Of a stretch of DNA of 35,516 nucleotides, positions 20,871-28,062 are shown piece after piece. Origin of the DNA: an uncultured Gemmataceae bacterium (GTDB lineage Bacteria; Planctomycetota; Planctomycetia; Gemmatales; Gemmataceae); NCBI GenBank assembly GCA_937922175.1, contig CAKZUU010000010.1:1-35516 (forward strand). Reading direction: 5' to 3'. The notes beneath the pieces were generated by a model. The model was not told the origin of the DNA. It searched no databases and saw only the letters and a program-made list of their open reading frames with translations. The stretch's first letter is position 1, and each line of letters opens with the position of its first letter. The translations under genes and the position numbers were made by a program.

Positions 20871-21107
20871 GCTCACTTCTTCCCCGAATTCTCGCAAATC
20901 GGCGGTAATCTTTTTCTAGTTCCCGCCAACGCAGACATTCTTCCCACTTTCAGAAGTCCGAACATGTTCCCCTGTCGTTCACCTCAATTCGACGCCCCTC
21001 CCCAATCGCCCTCGTCGCGCAGGTCTCGTTGGTGCAGAGCCGGACAATCGTCAGCCGCCCACGCCGGAAGAGTGCGGAACCCTTTTGTCCTTCGAGGAGA
21101 TTCATCC

Positions 21108-22994
21108 ATGTCGCGCCTCATTCTTCGCCGACTGACCTTCTGTTTGAGTATCTGCGGAGCGGTCTTGGGTATTTTTGGACCGAGCCATGGCCGTTCGGTG
21201 TCAGCCATGCCTCTGGCCAGCTGGTATCGCAGCTACCAAGCCGCCCGTGCTGAGGCAGAAACCCGATCCGCCCAAGCACTCGAAGCGCAAAACAATTTGG
21301 ACAAGGCCTTGGCCGCGCAGAACCGCGCCCAGCAAGTCTTGGACGCTGCCGCTGCCGATCAGGCCATCGCCGAGGAAAAACTTGTGATCGCTCGCCGGAG
21401 TTGGCAAGAACGGCAAGTCCCGTTTGTGGAAAATCAGCATCGGCTCAAAGAACGGCAGGAGCAAGCCTCTCGAACTATTGAACGCCGACAACGGTTGGAA
21501 AAAGCACTGCACGAGCATGACGCTCAAATTCAACGACTGGAAGAAACGATTTGCCATGCCGAAAAGCTCGGAGTGAAAAAAACTGAAGTGCAACGCCGAA
21601 TCCAGGAGTTGGAGACCCAAGCCCGAGAGTGCCAAGCTGTCATCGAGCAAGCCCAACAGGCGAAAGCTGACGCCGATCGGATTCGATCCGAGGTCAGCGC
21701 CAAGCTCGACTTGGCCCGTCGACAGGTCGCTGACGCTCAAAATCTCGTGGATCAAGAGCGATCTCGGGTCGCCCCCGTCCTCGCCGCCCTCGAAAAAGTG
21801 TCGAATCAGGTAAAGACAACGACAGAGCGGCAAGTCGCCGAGGCGGAAACCCGTTGGCGAGCAGCGAAGGAAGCGCTGAATTTGGCTCGTCAAAAGCTTT
21901 CCCAAGCCGAGACCCACCTCGCCGACGCTCGACGACGGGTTGCCGATGCCGAGAAGGACGCTGGGGAAAAGTCCCAGGCCGCCACCGCTGCCTTGACGGT
22001 CGCTCAGGAACAACGCGACATCACCGACCGCATCCACAAGCACCTCGGTGATGTCGCTCGGCTGATCGAGAAACTTCAATGGACCACGGCAGACCCGGAC
22101 GTCGGTCGCTCCATCGAGGCGATCTTAACCGACACCCTCAAAGTCTCTCGGACCCAGCGAGAGGAGCACGAGCGGCAGGCTCTGGCTCGCGTTGAGGCGG
22201 CAGCCCGGGCCGTCGCTGAATTGGAGTCAGCCAAAAAAGCCATGCAAAAAGCTCTTGAAGTCCAAGCGTCTGCGGAAATGGCGCTGGTCAAAGCCCGTCG
22301 AACTCTGGAGGAGGCGACTCGAGTGGAACAACGAGCCAAAGAAATTCGGGACGGCTTGATCCGGGACAGTGGGCGATTGTTCAATGAACTGTCCGAACGA
22401 GTGGCGACGGTTGTCCAACAAGCAGAGAGGCCCTTGACTCAAGCTCTCGCGACGTTGCAACAAGCCGACACCCAGGTCCAACGGCTCACTCGGACAATGG
22501 CAGATGCGACCCGACGACGGACAACGGCTCATGAGACGTGGAAGACAGCAGAGCAACGGGCAGAGCAGATCGAGGTGACCCTCAAGGTCTTCCGCGAGGA
22601 ATTAGCGGGGATTCCCGAAGTTGCCGATTTACCTGCCCGGAAAAACGCTTTGGCCAGACAGCAGAGCCTCCGCAACCAAGTCCTGGATGCACGAAATGCT
22701 CTCATCGCCGAGGAGCGACTTCTGACCGACGACATTGCGAGACGGACCCGACAGATGGCCGAACAGGGGTCGGCGTTGAAGCGGTTAGAGACAGAAGTCA
22801 ACGACCTGCAAGACTCGGTGCGACGAGCAGCAGTCAGGGTCCTCGAGGCGCGCAAAGCGTATGATGCCGCAGTCCAGGCCGTCATCGCCGCTCGACAAGA
22901 CGCCAACGAAAAAGCGGCTGCGGCGAAACGGGCCACCGATCGGCTGGCGAGACTCGCACCCGGTCAGGTCTTTGAGACGACACAACCTCGGTAA
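21108..22994 (+). CDS. Exported long coiled-coil protein of unknown function
   Basis: 628 aa from ATG 21108 (MSRLILRRLTFCLSICGAVLGIFGPSHG signal-like), then almost uninterrupted A/E/Q/R-rich heptad-like sequence. No enzymatic motif seen. Confidence 0.7.
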   Translation: MSRLILRRLTFCLSICGAVLGIFGPSHGRSVSAMPLASWYRSYQAARAEAETRSAQALEAQNNLDKALAAQNRAQQVLDAAAADQAIAEEKLVIARRSWQERQVPFVENQHRLKERQEQASRTIERRQRLEKALHEHDAQIQRLEETICHAEKLGVKKTEVQRRIQELETQARECQAVIEQAQQAKADADRIRSEVSAKLDLARRQVADAQNLVDQERSRVAPVLAALEKVSNQVKTTTERQVAEAETRWRAAKEALNLARQKLSQAETHLADARRRVADAEKDAGEKSQAATAALTVAQEQRDITDRIHKHLGDVARLIEKLQWTTADPDVGRSIEAILTDTLKVSRTQREEHERQALARVEAAARAVAELESAKKAMQKALEVQASAEMALVKARRTLEEATRVEQRAKEIRDGLIRDSGRLFNELSERVATVVQQAERPLTQALATLQQADTQVQRLTRTMADATRRRTTAHETWKTAEQRAEQIEVTLKVFREELAGIPEVADLPARKNALARQQSLRNQVLDARNALIAEERLLTDDIARRTRQMAEQGSALKRLETEVNDLQDSVRRAAVRVLEARKAYDAAVQAVIAARQDANEKAAAAKRATDRLARLAPGQVFETTQPR

Positions 22995-23132: not shown

Positions 23133-24359
23133 TCATTCGTCGGGCCGATTCCAATAGATGCGAATGTTTCGCGTTTGCCGACCCACGGCGACAATGTCGA
23201 TACGGCCATCGCCGTCCAGATCAGCCGCAGCCAGATCCTCGACAGCGACGCCACCCGGATCAACGAGATACCGGATCCATTTTTCGCCGTGGCGATCCTG
23301 GCATTTGTAGATGCGGACCCCGCTCCGGGCTTGTTCATTGAGTTGGTCTCGAACTCCGATGATCAACTCCTCGTCTCCGTCGCCGTCCAAGTCCGCGACC
23401 CAGACGGCATGTCCCCAACGCAACTGATCGTCGAGGACGAATCGCCGACGCAACTGGTCTTCGCCGATCTCTTCGGTGTAAACCACCACCTGATGACCGT
23501 GCCAAGGTTCGATGGTGGCAATGAATGACCGACCATTTTTCAACTTGCCCTCTTTGATCTCGCTGGCACCTCGACTGCCTTTGGGGTTCTGCTGATTTCC
23601 GGAACCGATGCGCCGCGTTCGCCACTGTCCCGTCTGGCCGATCTCGATGACACTGACCCCCTCGTAGCTGGCCGTCAACAAGCGGTGGCGTTGGTCCGAT
23701 GAAGCGCCCGGGACTACGGCAACGTTGTGAACAACGTGCAGCTCTTCGCTCAGGACGGTCGGCACCCACGGACCACGGACAGGATCTTTGGGAAGGCGAT
23801 AAGCCAAAATGCGGACCGGTCGCCCGTCCATCCAGTTACCGGCTGCGGTGCTCTGCCGACCCATCAGGGGAGCGAGAATGAGGGCAGGTGGTCGTCGTGG
23901 GCCGTCCAACCACGCCACTTTCACCCGGTGGACCGAAGGTTCCTCAGCGATTGGGTACAGGTCCCACTCCATGTCGAGGGAGGATCGTCGTCGGAGCCAT
24001 TGCAGGGTGCCGCCGACCTCCGTGTTAAAAGGGCGCCATCCCGCGCCCAAGATGATGTCCAACTTGCCATCGCCATCGACGTCGAGAACCGCGAGACAGA
24101 CATGATCCGGTTTGGTTTTCCCTTGCAGGATGAGCCTTGGCCTCCAAGTCGGGTTTTCGTACCACAGCAAGCGGTGTTGATCCGCGACGATGATGTCGGC
24201 CCGGCCATCATCATTGAGATCCGCCAAAGCGACGGCGTAGCCGATCGTCAGATCCCGCCCGATCTCTTGCACGTCCCAACGCACCCCCGGGGGCCCCGCC
24301 GATAACGGCTGGCCTGGGGGAAGGGCGATCAGCACCACCGAAATCATCCATCGGCGCAT
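23133..24359 (-). CDS. Exported FG-GAP/VCBS repeat beta-propeller protein
   Basis: Signal-like MRRWMISVVLIALPPGQPLSAG from ATG 24359. Repeated Ca-binding-like motifs 'ALADLNDDGRADIIVAD', 'VLDVDGDGKLDIILG', 'VADLDGDGDEELIIG', 'AADLDGDGRIDIVAVG'. Confidence 0.85.
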   Translation of the reverse strand: MRRWMISVVLIALPPGQPLSAGPPGVRWDVQEIGRDLTIGYAVALADLNDDGRADIIVADQHRLLWYENPTWRPRLILQGKTKPDHVCLAVLDVDGDGKLDIILGAGWRPFNTEVGGTLQWLRRRSSLDMEWDLYPIAEEPSVHRVKVAWLDGPRRPPALILAPLMGRQSTAAGNWMDGRPVRILAYRLPKDPVRGPWVPTVLSEELHVVHNVAVVPGASSDQRHRLLTASYEGVSVIEIGQTGQWRTRRIGSGNQQNPKGSRGASEIKEGKLKNGRSFIATIEPWHGHQVVVYTEEIGEDQLRRRFVLDDQLRWGHAVWVADLDGDGDEELIIGVRDQLNEQARSGVRIYKCQDRHGEKWIRYLVDPGGVAVEDLAAADLDGDGRIDIVAVGRQTRNIRIYWNRPDE

Positions 24360-24539
24360 GTCGTCACCTGCGGGAGGACTTCTAGACGATATAGCGAGGC
24401 GGTCGAAATTTTCCGCAAAAGCGGACGAATCACCAGAAGCGTTTCCCTCGGAAAACACGGTTCTCCCTTGATCCGAATCCCGGCGCACCGGAGAATGGAG
24501 ACGTTGAGAGAAGTGGTGGCACTCAGCCCTGGTAGCCGC

Positions 24540-25349
24540 ATGACCATTCGCTCATCGCACAAACCATCGCGTGAAATTGCGTTGTTGCTGCTGTCGCTGG
24601 TCCTGGTCGCCGGGATCAGCTATCCGATCCACCGATGGACGCAGACGTCGGGAAATTCGCTTGATCCCGAGGGGAAGTGGACGCCGCAGCGACTGGGCCG
24701 GCTGCTTTTTGGACCGGAGCAGATCACCTGTTACTGCTTTTTCACCTGGGCGAGTTTGATTCTGGGCCGACGAGCTGCCGAGGTCGCTCGACAGCGCTCC
24801 GCGTTTCATTTGGATCTTTTGCCCACCGACGAGGGAGCGCGAATCCTGCCCGAGGACGCGCGACCGCTCATCCGCAAGTTGGAGATGCAGACCGCCCAGC
24901 GCGGTCCCCTGATCCTTGCGACGATGGTGCGAATCGCCTTGGGGAAATACGCCATCAGCAAGTCAGCGCCGGACGTGGGGGAAGTGGTTCGGACCCAAGC
25001 GGAAATCGAGCAGTACCGCTTGGTCAGCAGCATGTACCTCGTGCAATACTTGATGTGGGCGATTCCAGCCGTCGGGTTCATCGGAACGGTTCGTGGTCTG
25101 GCCGGGGCGTTTTCGATGGCCAGTTCGACCGTCGAGGAACTTACGGTCTTCATGAACGACGCGAGTCGGCATTTGAATTTCGCCTTCGACTGCACTCTGG
25201 TCGCGTTGGTTCTAAGCGTCGTGGGGATGTATTTCCTCCACTTGGTGCAAAGGAGCGAGGAAAACCTGATCAACGACTGCCAGCAATACTGCCAGGAACA
25301 CTTGTTGCTCCGCCTATACGATCCGCAACCGGAGCAAGCTGTGGTGTGA
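24540..25349 (+). CDS. MotA/TolQ/ExbB-like proton channel family protein
   Basis: Four predicted hydrophobic segments. MotA/ExbB signature 'YLMWAIPAVGFIGTVRGLAGAFSMAS...LTVFMNDASRHLNFAFDCTLVALVLSVVGMYFLHLVQRSEE'. ATG 24540 preferred over 24468 or 24495. Confidence 0.82.
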   Translation: MTIRSSHKPSREIALLLLSLVLVAGISYPIHRWTQTSGNSLDPEGKWTPQRLGRLLFGPEQITCYCFFTWASLILGRRAAEVARQRSAFHLDLLPTDEGARILPEDARPLIRKLEMQTAQRGPLILATMVRIALGKYAISKSAPDVGEVVRTQAEIEQYRLVSSMYLVQYLMWAIPAVGFIGTVRGLAGAFSMASSTVEELTVFMNDASRHLNFAFDCTLVALVLSVVGMYFLHLVQRSEENLINDCQQYCQEHLLLRLYDPQPEQAVV

Positions 25350-25387
25350 AGTCGAGCGCGAGGGTAAGGAACCATCGAGGGTGGGTC

Positions 25388-26590
25388 ATGGGCTGGACCA
25401 ATTGGTCGCGGAAGGTCGCGGAACCAGTTCGTGGAACGGACTCCCTGATGGGGTTGGACCTGAATTCAACACGATTACGGGTGATGACCGGCGACGGCCA
25501 ACGGGTCGCACACTCCGTGATTCTGGATGATCCGCATGAGGAATTCCCACTCGCGGTGGCGTTCTCCGGCCGGACATCCGAATGGGGACACGCCGCTCAG
25601 GCCGTCGAACGCCGTTGGCCCCACCTGTTCCTCGCGGATTTTCTGGCTGACGTGAATTTGCCCCGTCGGTGGGAGGTGGGCCGATACCGCCTGACCTCCG
25701 CCGAGCTGCTGACCCAGATGTTCCAGCGACTGCGTCCGACCTGCCCGCCAGCGACAGCGATCACAGCGGTGTTGCCAGCGTATCTGACGAGTCCGAAAGT
25801 CACCCTTCTGGCCGAGATCATGGAGCGTTGCCGGTTCCCACTGCGCGGCTCGGCGCTCCTCCCACTGGCCCTAGCCGCGACCTACGACTTACCCGATGGA
25901 CGTCCGGCCTCGATCTTGATCGTCGACTGCGACGCTCACGCCCTGAGTGTGTCGTTGGTCCTCGTTGAAGAGACTCAAGCACGCTTGCTTAGCACGGCCC
26001 CCTTGCCGCGGCTGAATACCCGGACTTGGAAAAACTGGCTACTGGCCGGGATCGCCGATCGCTGTGTCCGCGTTTGCCGACGAGATCCTCGGGACTCCGC
26101 CGCCACGGAGCAGGCCCTTTTTGAGCAACTCGACTCGGCGATGGAGAGCCTCCGCCAGGAGCCGCGGGTCGAGTTAATCATTCGATCGACGCATTGGTAT
26201 CAAACGTTGCTCCAGACGGCAGATGATTTCGCTCGTTATTGTGGCAATCTGGTGAAAGCGAGTCTGGCGGGGTTGCGCGAGTTTTTGCAACCTTTGGTTG
26301 CGGAGCCGCCGACCGCGGTTTGGCTGACGCACGCTGCTGGCCGACTGCCCGGCCTGGTCGCCGCCGTGGAGTCATTCACGGCCGAGCGTACTGCTGTCGA
26401 AGTGCTGGCACCTGACGCCGCTTGCCGTGCCGCCCTGACACTGGCCAGTCGATGGAATCAGGACGATTTGCCGCGTCTGCACCGGGACAGCGTGATCCCT
26501 CGACCCGAGGGATCCTCGCGGGATTCCTCGCCGACCACGTACCGAACTGCCAATTCGCCCCCCCCACCAAGGGTCTGGCGAGAGCGCTGA
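25388..26590 (+). CDS. Hsp70/actin-fold nucleotide-binding-domain-like protein with degenerate phosphate-2 motif
   Basis: 400 aa from ATG 25388. 'LMGLDLNSTRLRVMT' (phosphate-1-like), 'AITAVLPAYLTSPKVTLLAEIMERCRFPLRGSALLPLALAATYDL' (matches DnaK 'VPAYF...A...INEPTAAALAYGL' by eye), 'ILIVDCDAHALSVSLVLVEE' (phosphate-2 position), 'AVWLTHAAGRLPGLVAAVESF' (adenosine-motif position). The listed ORF start at 24677 is out-of-frame read-through. Confidence 0.7.
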   Translation: MGWTNWSRKVAEPVRGTDSLMGLDLNSTRLRVMTGDGQRVAHSVILDDPHEEFPLAVAFSGRTSEWGHAAQAVERRWPHLFLADFLADVNLPRRWEVGRYRLTSAELLTQMFQRLRPTCPPATAITAVLPAYLTSPKVTLLAEIMERCRFPLRGSALLPLALAATYDLPDGRPASILIVDCDAHALSVSLVLVEETQARLLSTAPLPRLNTRTWKNWLLAGIADRCVRVCRRDPRDSAATEQALFEQLDSAMESLRQEPRVELIIRSTHWYQTLLQTADDFARYCGNLVKASLAGLREFLQPLVAEPPTAVWLTHAAGRLPGLVAAVESFTAERTAVEVLAPDAACRAALTLASRWNQDDLPRLHRDSVIPRPEGSSRDSSPTTYRTANSPPPPRVWRER

Positions 26591-26637
26591 GCGGTGAACA
26601 CCGGGCCAGGAAAAAATCACGTCAGTGAGACGAAGTT

Positions 26638-28062
26638 ATGCGAACTCGCCACCGCATCCCCACGATTTTTTCCCTGTCCATGCTCGATGTGTTTTGTTGC
26701 GCTCTGGGATGCGTCATCTTTCTCTGGCTGTGGAACGATCGTTTAGCCAAGATGCGTCTCAAGGCGGCGGATGAGACACAGCGGCAACTGGAGTCGGTCC
26801 GGGCCGACTTTCTTCAAGCCCGAAGCCGCATCCAATCGTTGGAGTCGGAACTCTCCCGGGTGCAGAACCAACTCGCCGCGACCGCCTCTGACCTGAAGAA
26901 AACGCAAAACGAAGCCGCAACTCTTGCTCGCCAAAAGGAGCAGACCGCCCAGGAACTCGCGGACACCCAAAAGGAGTTGGCCAATTGGCAACAGCGGGCT
27001 GACGAGCTTCGGAAGAAGTCGGAGCAGCAAGAGCGGTCCGCCAAGGGGCTGGCCGATCAGTTAGAGAAAATGTCGGCAGCGGAGAGACAACTTCGGAGTC
27101 AGATGGTGGCCGCGACCCAACGGTTGGAGAGTTTGGAGATGCTCTTGCGCAACCGGGAGAAGGATTTGACCATGACCTCGACTCGGGCCAAGGAGTTGAC
27201 CGATCAGCTTCAACATCTGGAGGGGCAACTGCGGATGCTGCGAGCGCAAGCGCAAGAGTCGCTGTCCGAACAGGGACAAAAACTCGCTGCCGCTCAAGCA
27301 CGGATCCAGGAGCTGGAGAAGTTTCTCAACAATCGCAAGTCCAGTTTGATCGAGATGCAGCGGACCCTGGACGACTTGCAGTCGGAGAGAAAAAGCCTCA
27401 GCGAACAGTTGGCGAAGTATCGGTTAGCCGCGGACAATCGCTTCGCGGGGATTAGTTTGACGGGTCGTCGCGTCATCTTCGTGGTCGATATGTCCGGGAG
27501 CATGCGGATGACGAATGCGCAGTCAGAAGCGCCAGAGAAATGGCCCTTGGTCATCGAAACCGTGACGAAGATCATGCGGAGCCTGCCGGAACTGGAAAAA
27601 TTCCAGGTCATTGTTTTCAGTGAGGGGGCGAGCTTCCCATTGGGCAAATCGAATGATTGGTTCAATTACGATGAGGCCGCCGCCGATCGTGTGAACCAAG
27701 CATTGAAAGCCATTCAACCCAAGGGGAATACGAATCTGTACGCGGCCTTCGAGGCCGCCTTCCGTTTTCGACCATTGGGTCTGGACACGATCTACCTGTT
27801 GTCCGATGGCCTGCCGAACGTCGGACCCGGCCTGACGCCCTTGGAGCAAACACAGGTCATGAGCGAGCTGCAAAAAGGTGAGCGACTCGGCCGACACATT
27901 CGAAATATGCTAAGCTCTACCTGGAATCGCCCAACACCGGGTTGGGCCAAAGTTCGGATTAATTCCATTGGTTTTTTCTACGACAGCCCCGACCTAGGCT
28001 CGTTCCTGTGGGCGCTCGCCCGGGAAAATGAGGGGAGCTTTGTCGGGATGAGTCAGCCATGA
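26638..28062 (+). CDS. MotB-like single-TM protein with long coiled coil and C-terminal VWA domain
   Basis: N-terminal TM 'SMLDVFCCALGCVIFLWLWND', about 200-aa coiled coil, VWA domain with MIDAS 'VIFVVDMSGSMRMTN', 'KGNTNLYAAFEAAF' and 'IYLLSDGLPNVG'. Confidence 0.82.
   Translation: MRTRHRIPTIFSLSMLDVFCCALGCVIFLWLWNDRLAKMRLKAADETQRQLESVRADFLQARSRIQSLESELSRVQNQLAATASDLKKTQNEAATLARQKEQTAQELADTQKELANWQQRADELRKKSEQQERSAKGLADQLEKMSAAERQLRSQMVAATQRLESLEMLLRNREKDLTMTSTRAKELTDQLQHLEGQLRMLRAQAQESLSEQGQKLAAAQARIQELEKFLNNRKSSLIEMQRTLDDLQSERKSLSEQLAKYRLAADNRFAGISLTGRRVIFVVDMSGSMRMTNAQSEAPEKWPLVIETVTKIMRSLPELEKFQVIVFSEGASFPLGKSNDWFNYDEAAADRVNQALKAIQPKGNTNLYAAFEAAFRFRPLGLDTIYLLSDGLPNVGPGLTPLEQTQVMSELQKGERLGRHIRNMLSSTWNRPTPGWAKVRINSIGFFYDSPDLGSFLWALARENEGSFVGMSQP

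Follow-up and report, generated by a model that had tools for sequence, protein, structure and literature searches.

A candidate ion-driven membrane motor with a VWA-bearing B subunit, encoded by three conserved genes in Gemmataceae

Three genes at 24540-28062 of the window (the whole stretch of DNA analysed, 35,516 nucleotides from an uncultured Gemmataceae bacterium) quite probably encode an ion-driven inner-membrane motor of the 5:2 type, with a VWA protein as B subunit. Established for these genes are the parts themselves, their conservation, synteny and co-loss, the missing ExbD or MotB and a charge bias around the membrane helix. Coordinates are collected in Table 1.

Table 1. Features of the three-gene module, in window coordinates
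Feature	Positions	Strand	Basis
A subunit, MotA/TolQ/ExbB family, 269 aa, pore threonines T183 and T219	24540..25349	+	Pfam, AF2 fold, conservation
Middle gene, Hsp70/DnaK NBD homologue, 400 aa	25388..26590	+	Profile, AF2, Foldseek
Proposed B subunit: TM helix, coiled coil and VWA, 474 aa	26638..28062	+	ORF, Pfam and conservation
Transmembrane (pore) helix, residues 8-33	26659..26736	+	Hydropathy; most conserved block
D17 codon, candidate ion-binding Asp	26686..26688	+	67/67 invariant
Coiled coil, residues about 38-262	26749..27423	+	3.50-residue hydrophobic periodicity
VWA domain core, residues 278-393, fold runs on to C terminus	27469..27816	+	VWA_3, VWA_2 matches

The VWA protein (N-terminal sequence MRTRHRIPTIFSLSMLDVFCCALGCVIFLWLWNDRLAK) was read from its open reading frame. 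This confirmed a description made in a first-pass annotation, namely a transmembrane helix heading a VWA protein, with an Asp (D17) and a Trp (W30) 13 residues further on (D-x12-W). The highest hydropathy was found over residues 13-31 (KD 2.27). Hydrophobic periodicity of the following segment peaked at exactly 3.50 residues (heptad), a peak reached in 0/500 shuffles. Across the family this coiled coil measures 207-343 residues, corresponding to about 31-51 nm if fully extended. Pfam assigned the C-terminal part to VWA_3 (E 4e-10) and VWA_2 (E 1.2e-9), and the MIDAS is complete, with D284-x-S286-x-S288, T365 and D390 each present in 67/67 homologues. Matches to SMC, Rad50 and similar Pfam and NCBIfam entries were discarded as coiled-coil artefacts.

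For conservation analysis, homologues were collected with an alignment query, which returned 73 named loci with titles mostly of Gemmataceae or other planctomycetes. A scan of genome contigs with the VWA protein as single query gave no match, and tblastn against plasmids gave just weak coiled-coil or generic VWA matches. Whole genomes were a further source (match in 50/59 relatives, for some VWA only). The final set comprised 67 sequences with readable N terminus, i.e. the window and 66 named loci. Lack of conservation of D17 among homologues had been named beforehand as a refuting result; the residue was found in all 67 sequences and the refutation fails. P8, M15, L23 and G24 were likewise invariant (67/67). 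Position 30 varies, with W in 47 sequences, F in 16 and M in 4. D17 is thus strictly constrained and W30 is merely a preferred aromatic, and the Trp spacing therefore carries no evidential weight. Mean majority-residue frequency is highest in the helix (0.77; VWA 0.64, coil 0.36), whose signature in the window family reads D-V-x-C-C-x-L-G-C. The cysteines in this stretch (residues 20-25, 26695-26712) are near-invariant (C20 66/67, C21 66/67, C25 63/67), and they had no counterpart in the MotB or ExbD helices aligned.

The protein encoded at the start of the module is a genuine MotA/TolQ/ExbB relative. PF01618 was matched with E 1.3e-6 (28.6 bits against a curated cut-off of 22.9). An AlphaFold2 model (pLDDT 85.0) was searched against PDB folds; ExbB and TolQ chains lead the list (best E 2e-3, probability 1.00), and the entries below them are other 5:2 A subunits (PomA, MotA, ZorA). 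A PDB sequence search with the A profile gave asparaginase matches only, which were rejected as spurious. Both pore threonines are invariant (55/55), and hhalign of the A profile with 14 canonical A subunits of the same genomes placed them on the known pore Thr positions of TolQ/MotA. D217, two residues before T219 (D217-T219, 25188-25196), was present in 55/55 sequences and absent from the TolQ/MotA sequences aligned, and may mark a different ion path. The A protein also carries an extra N-terminal helix relative to the ExbB set. Both features count against the motor reading, insofar as the ion pathway may differ.

Three A genes were found in the window's genome: one beside two ExbD genes (C281), one beside MotB (C449), and that of the window beside neither. 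An ExbD or MotB neighbour of the module A gene was missing in 6/6 genomes, and the top-scoring A genes that belong to other systems there adjoin ExbD or MotB. Given a true A partner with both pore threonines and the missing ExbD/MotB neighbour, the VWA protein is therefore the natural B subunit. The partnership of the two proteins, as originally proposed, is supported by the A-family relationship, the invariant pore Thr, the missing neighbours and the conserved operon.

The helix had also been called specifically MotB-like, and this was not borne out. D-x12-W occurs in some MotB only; the genome's own flagellar MotB (WKVAYADFVTAMMAFFMVMWI) has it, and D-MMSLLLTFF-type MotB of the same class lacks it. 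Comparison of the helix with MotB helices of the same class using hhalign was marginal (P 0.01, D on D), with column-shuffled controls as high in 16/150 and 6/100 cases, and comparison with ExbD was not significant (P 0.16). Helix homology to MotB/ExbD by direct profile comparison was dropped, since column-shuffled controls score as well; this weak link counts against the motor reading. MotB_plug (PF13677) was not among the Pfam matches listed for the VWA protein, and a genome search detected it in the C449 MotB only. PF02472 (ExbD/TolR) had no match in the VWA protein or at the window locus. The VWA protein ends in a VWA domain and has no OmpA-like peptidoglycan-binding domain of the MotB family.

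Closer relatives of the helix were found beside distantly related A genes, which occur in other orders of the class and in three genomes from within the same family. These A genes are mostly followed by paired B-like genes (B1 and B2), each encoding an N-terminal helix and a coiled coil (loci L165-L171; at the length cut-off used, L167 showed the first gene only, and L172 had neither motif). B1 carries the motif FPFLSxLACxIG (FPFLSVLACVIG), with S or A at the Asp position in 6/7; B2 carries DSLLDxxxNVVGI (DSLLDTMxNVVGI), which includes the Asp. For the window helix, the match to B1 spans all 42 columns (P 1.9e-7), and the match to B2 (P 1.6e-3) places D17 on the B2 Asp; 0/100 shuffled controls scored as high in either case. 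By this significant similarity, the window helix belongs with the B-like helices accompanying the same A-subunit branch. B2 was aligned with ExbD at P 4.5e-3, Asp on Asp, a figure obtained without control, and any link of the window helix to ExbD would be transitive and weak. Pfam gave no domain beyond coiled-coil noise in the two paired B-like proteins tested.

The S or A at the D17 position in 6/7 B1 sequences, the strongest helix match, speaks against the motor reading. It would fit a structural role of D17, in helix packing or in a salt bridge with an A-subunit Arg (e.g. R185), with the VWA protein merely anchored to an A subunit whose ExbD is encoded elsewhere; ExbD genes are indeed present elsewhere in the genomes. 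However, these ExbD genes adjoin A genes of their own and, in the paired systems, D17 has the B2 Asp as its counterpart; we regard a structural D17 as very unlikely.

Topology was predicted from the charges flanking the helix. Mean net charge across the 67 homologues was +2.8 before and +0.04 after the helix, the N-flank being more positive in 64/67 and the C-flank in none. At one locus (L115:4627-6660) a Ser/Thr kinase (PF00069, E 2.6e-52), a membrane helix and a closely related VWA are joined in one protein. The kinase must be inside, and the VWA of this protein is therefore outside. Charge bias and kinase-TM-VWA fusion favour the predicted N-in topology with a periplasmic VWA, in agreement with what had been deduced from the basic N-terminus. 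An N-in orientation is shared by all B subunits known for A partners of this kind (MotB, ExbD, TolR and ZorB). In the window protein, basic residues are also found past the helix (R35, K38, R40, K42). Together with the soluble, predicted cytosolic product of the middle gene, they would suit a reversed orientation in which VWA and coiled coil form a cytosolic complex with the Hsp70-like protein; against the charge bias, the kinase fusion and the uniform orientation of known B subunits, such an arrangement is extremely improbable.

The first-pass annotation was silent on the Hsp70-like middle gene, which is part of the same module. Its profile was matched to the DnaK NBD with E 7.7e-20, and all 50 Foldseek matches listed for its AF2 model (pLDDT 90.9) were of the Hsp70 family (E to 7.5e-23). 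The protein stops after the NBD and no substrate-binding domain was found in it. Catalytic positions were mapped via profile alignment to M. tuberculosis DnaK, using the DnaK catalytic residues K70, E171 and T199 (E. coli numbering). L was found at the K70 position in 50/52 and A at the T199 position in 47/52 sequences; none of the residues listed for the E171 position is acidic, and the two glycine loops are degenerate as well. R231, D233, R235 and D182 are invariant. The product is probably a non-hydrolysing pseudo-enzyme, judged from these substitutions. To our knowledge, no described 5:2 motor has a catalytically dead Hsp70 domain as a part.

A pseudo-Hsp70 partner suggests signalling over force. 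VWA domains bind ligands, and the protein that links the related VWA through a membrane helix with a Ser/Thr kinase has the layout of a sensor. The A ring and VWA helix might thus form a mechanosensor or a ligand-gated ion channel: binding by the outside VWA would alter an ion leak or signal via the Hsp70-like protein. Both pore threonines and the Asp are nevertheless invariant, as in energy-converting relatives, and functionally known relatives turn ion flow into force; a sensor or channel is considered rather unlikely.

The gene order of the module was kept in 56/71 named loci with a VWA match, with one VWA gene per locus (a single B gene, no pair). The other 15 comprise 13 loci cut by contig ends, the kinase fusion and one locus lacking the other two genes. 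The last (L084:5908-7545) has a VWA gene with no ExbB-like or Hsp70-like gene in 5.9 kb upstream, possibly by rearrangement or misassembly. The occurrence of a VWA gene without its two partner genes counts against the motor reading. A survey of the class covering 199 genomes detected the VWA protein in 43/47 of the same family, 4/4 from the order's second family and 0/148 of the remainder, for 132 of which the placement outside the order was read from table ordering, not by name. Four genomes of the same family were VWA-negative; three of them (G015, G209, G030) lack all three genes, and in G145 the module is cut by a contig end. Two records titled Bacteroidales and Candidatus Kuenenia (L058, L097) carry the module and are likely mislabelled planctomycete bins. 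No paper on an Hsp70-VWA-ExbB operon variant was retrieved in a literature search with most subscription journals outside its scope.

For the preferred motor reading, we infer assembly, ion flux, rotation and ligand as follows. A ring of five ExbB/TolQ-like subunits would enclose an axle made of two VWA proteins. In both axle helices, D17 would face the T183/T219 ring, and would take up and release a proton or sodium ion. Rotation or push would pass along the parallel coiled coil to the VWA pair outside the cytoplasm, and a ligand located in the periplasm, peptidoglycan or outer membrane would be gripped there by the intact MIDAS. The Hsp70-like protein would stay cytoplasmic; because it is without catalytic residues, it would most likely act at the cytoplasmic side of the ring as an adaptor or regulator that performs no hydrolysis. 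The fuller picture, an order-wide planctomycete motor whose ExbB-like ring holds a homodimeric axle of Asp helix, coiled coil and VWA, with a dead Hsp70 ATPase domain as cytoplasmic clutch or adaptor, is put forward tentatively, and the chances are somewhat against its holding as a whole.

The module was compared with known systems. TPH-vWA force transducers (Mol Biol Evol 2025, msaf138; PMC12204202) were compared by published description. In them, a VWA protein carries a TolR/ExbD-like pore helix with an Asp and has a tolQ-like neighbour, with no tolR/exbD; they have been proposed as axles of 5:2 motors, AF3 models putting the Asp inside the Thr ring (PMC12204202). These models, from an independent group, speak for the motor reading. 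The transducers are reported mainly in Proteobacteria and Verrucomicrobia, 'predominantly' as heterologous pairs (PMC12204202). The window VWA protein shares the Asp TM helix, the VWA, the tolQ-like neighbour and the missing tolR/exbD. It differs in that the module has a single VWA gene, a planctomycete order as host, an Hsp70-like middle gene and the D-V-x-C-C-x-L-G-C helix. The window module has no heterologous pair, and pairing is not strictly defining. A VWA with Asp pore helix beside tolQ and no tolR is thus already published (PMC12204202); new are the single axle gene, its near-universal presence in the order and its absence from sampled sister orders, and the pseudo-Hsp70 partner.

With ExbB-ExbD and TolQ-TolR the module has in common the A-subunit fold and family, the B-helix Asp, the A-ring Thr pair and an N-in B; unlike these, the window B has a coiled coil and VWA and no ExbD periplasmic domain. 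No TonB/TolA-like gene was seen in the window module. MotA-MotB is similar in that the Asp lies early in the B helix and, for E. coli-type MotB, in the Trp 13 residues on. It is different in that the window B has no OmpA-like domain or plug match, the helix similarity is non-significant and the genome has separate MotAB (C449). ZorA-ZorB of Zorya defence shares the 5:2 membrane motor fold (ZorA 8vvn_D ranked 46 in the A-protein fold search). Membership in Zorya was rejected: the A protein had no PADLOC match, weak ZorA matches of the VWA protein were coiled-coil only, and there is no OmpA-like ZorB domain. The paired B-like genes (L165-L171) resemble the module in a related A gene, a downstream helix and coiled coil, a similar helix and an Asp in the second gene. 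They differ in having two B-like genes, as a rule one with Asp, a C-terminal domain that is not VWA and no Hsp70-like gene.

If the motor reading holds, VWA-tipped 5:2 motors would be extended to nearly every sampled genome of one planctomycete order, and the conserved pseudo-Hsp70 would give a genetic handle on them. The paired-gene form in sister orders could serve as basis for studying the origin of the single-gene axle. Tests are made feasible by cultured carriers (Limnoglobus roseus, Zavarzinella formosa and a Gemmata sp.), and the host organisms have a cell envelope of an unusual kind, in which little is known about energised processes at the outer membrane.

Two further genes were noted upstream of the module. 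The gene at 20964-22994 (+) encodes a 676-aa protein, probably mostly coiled coil, which had no significant Pfam match and no homologue near the module in relatives. A divergent FG-GAP/beta-propeller protein is encoded at 23133-24488 (-), adjoining the module, and a homologue lies alongside it in 6/20 relatives.
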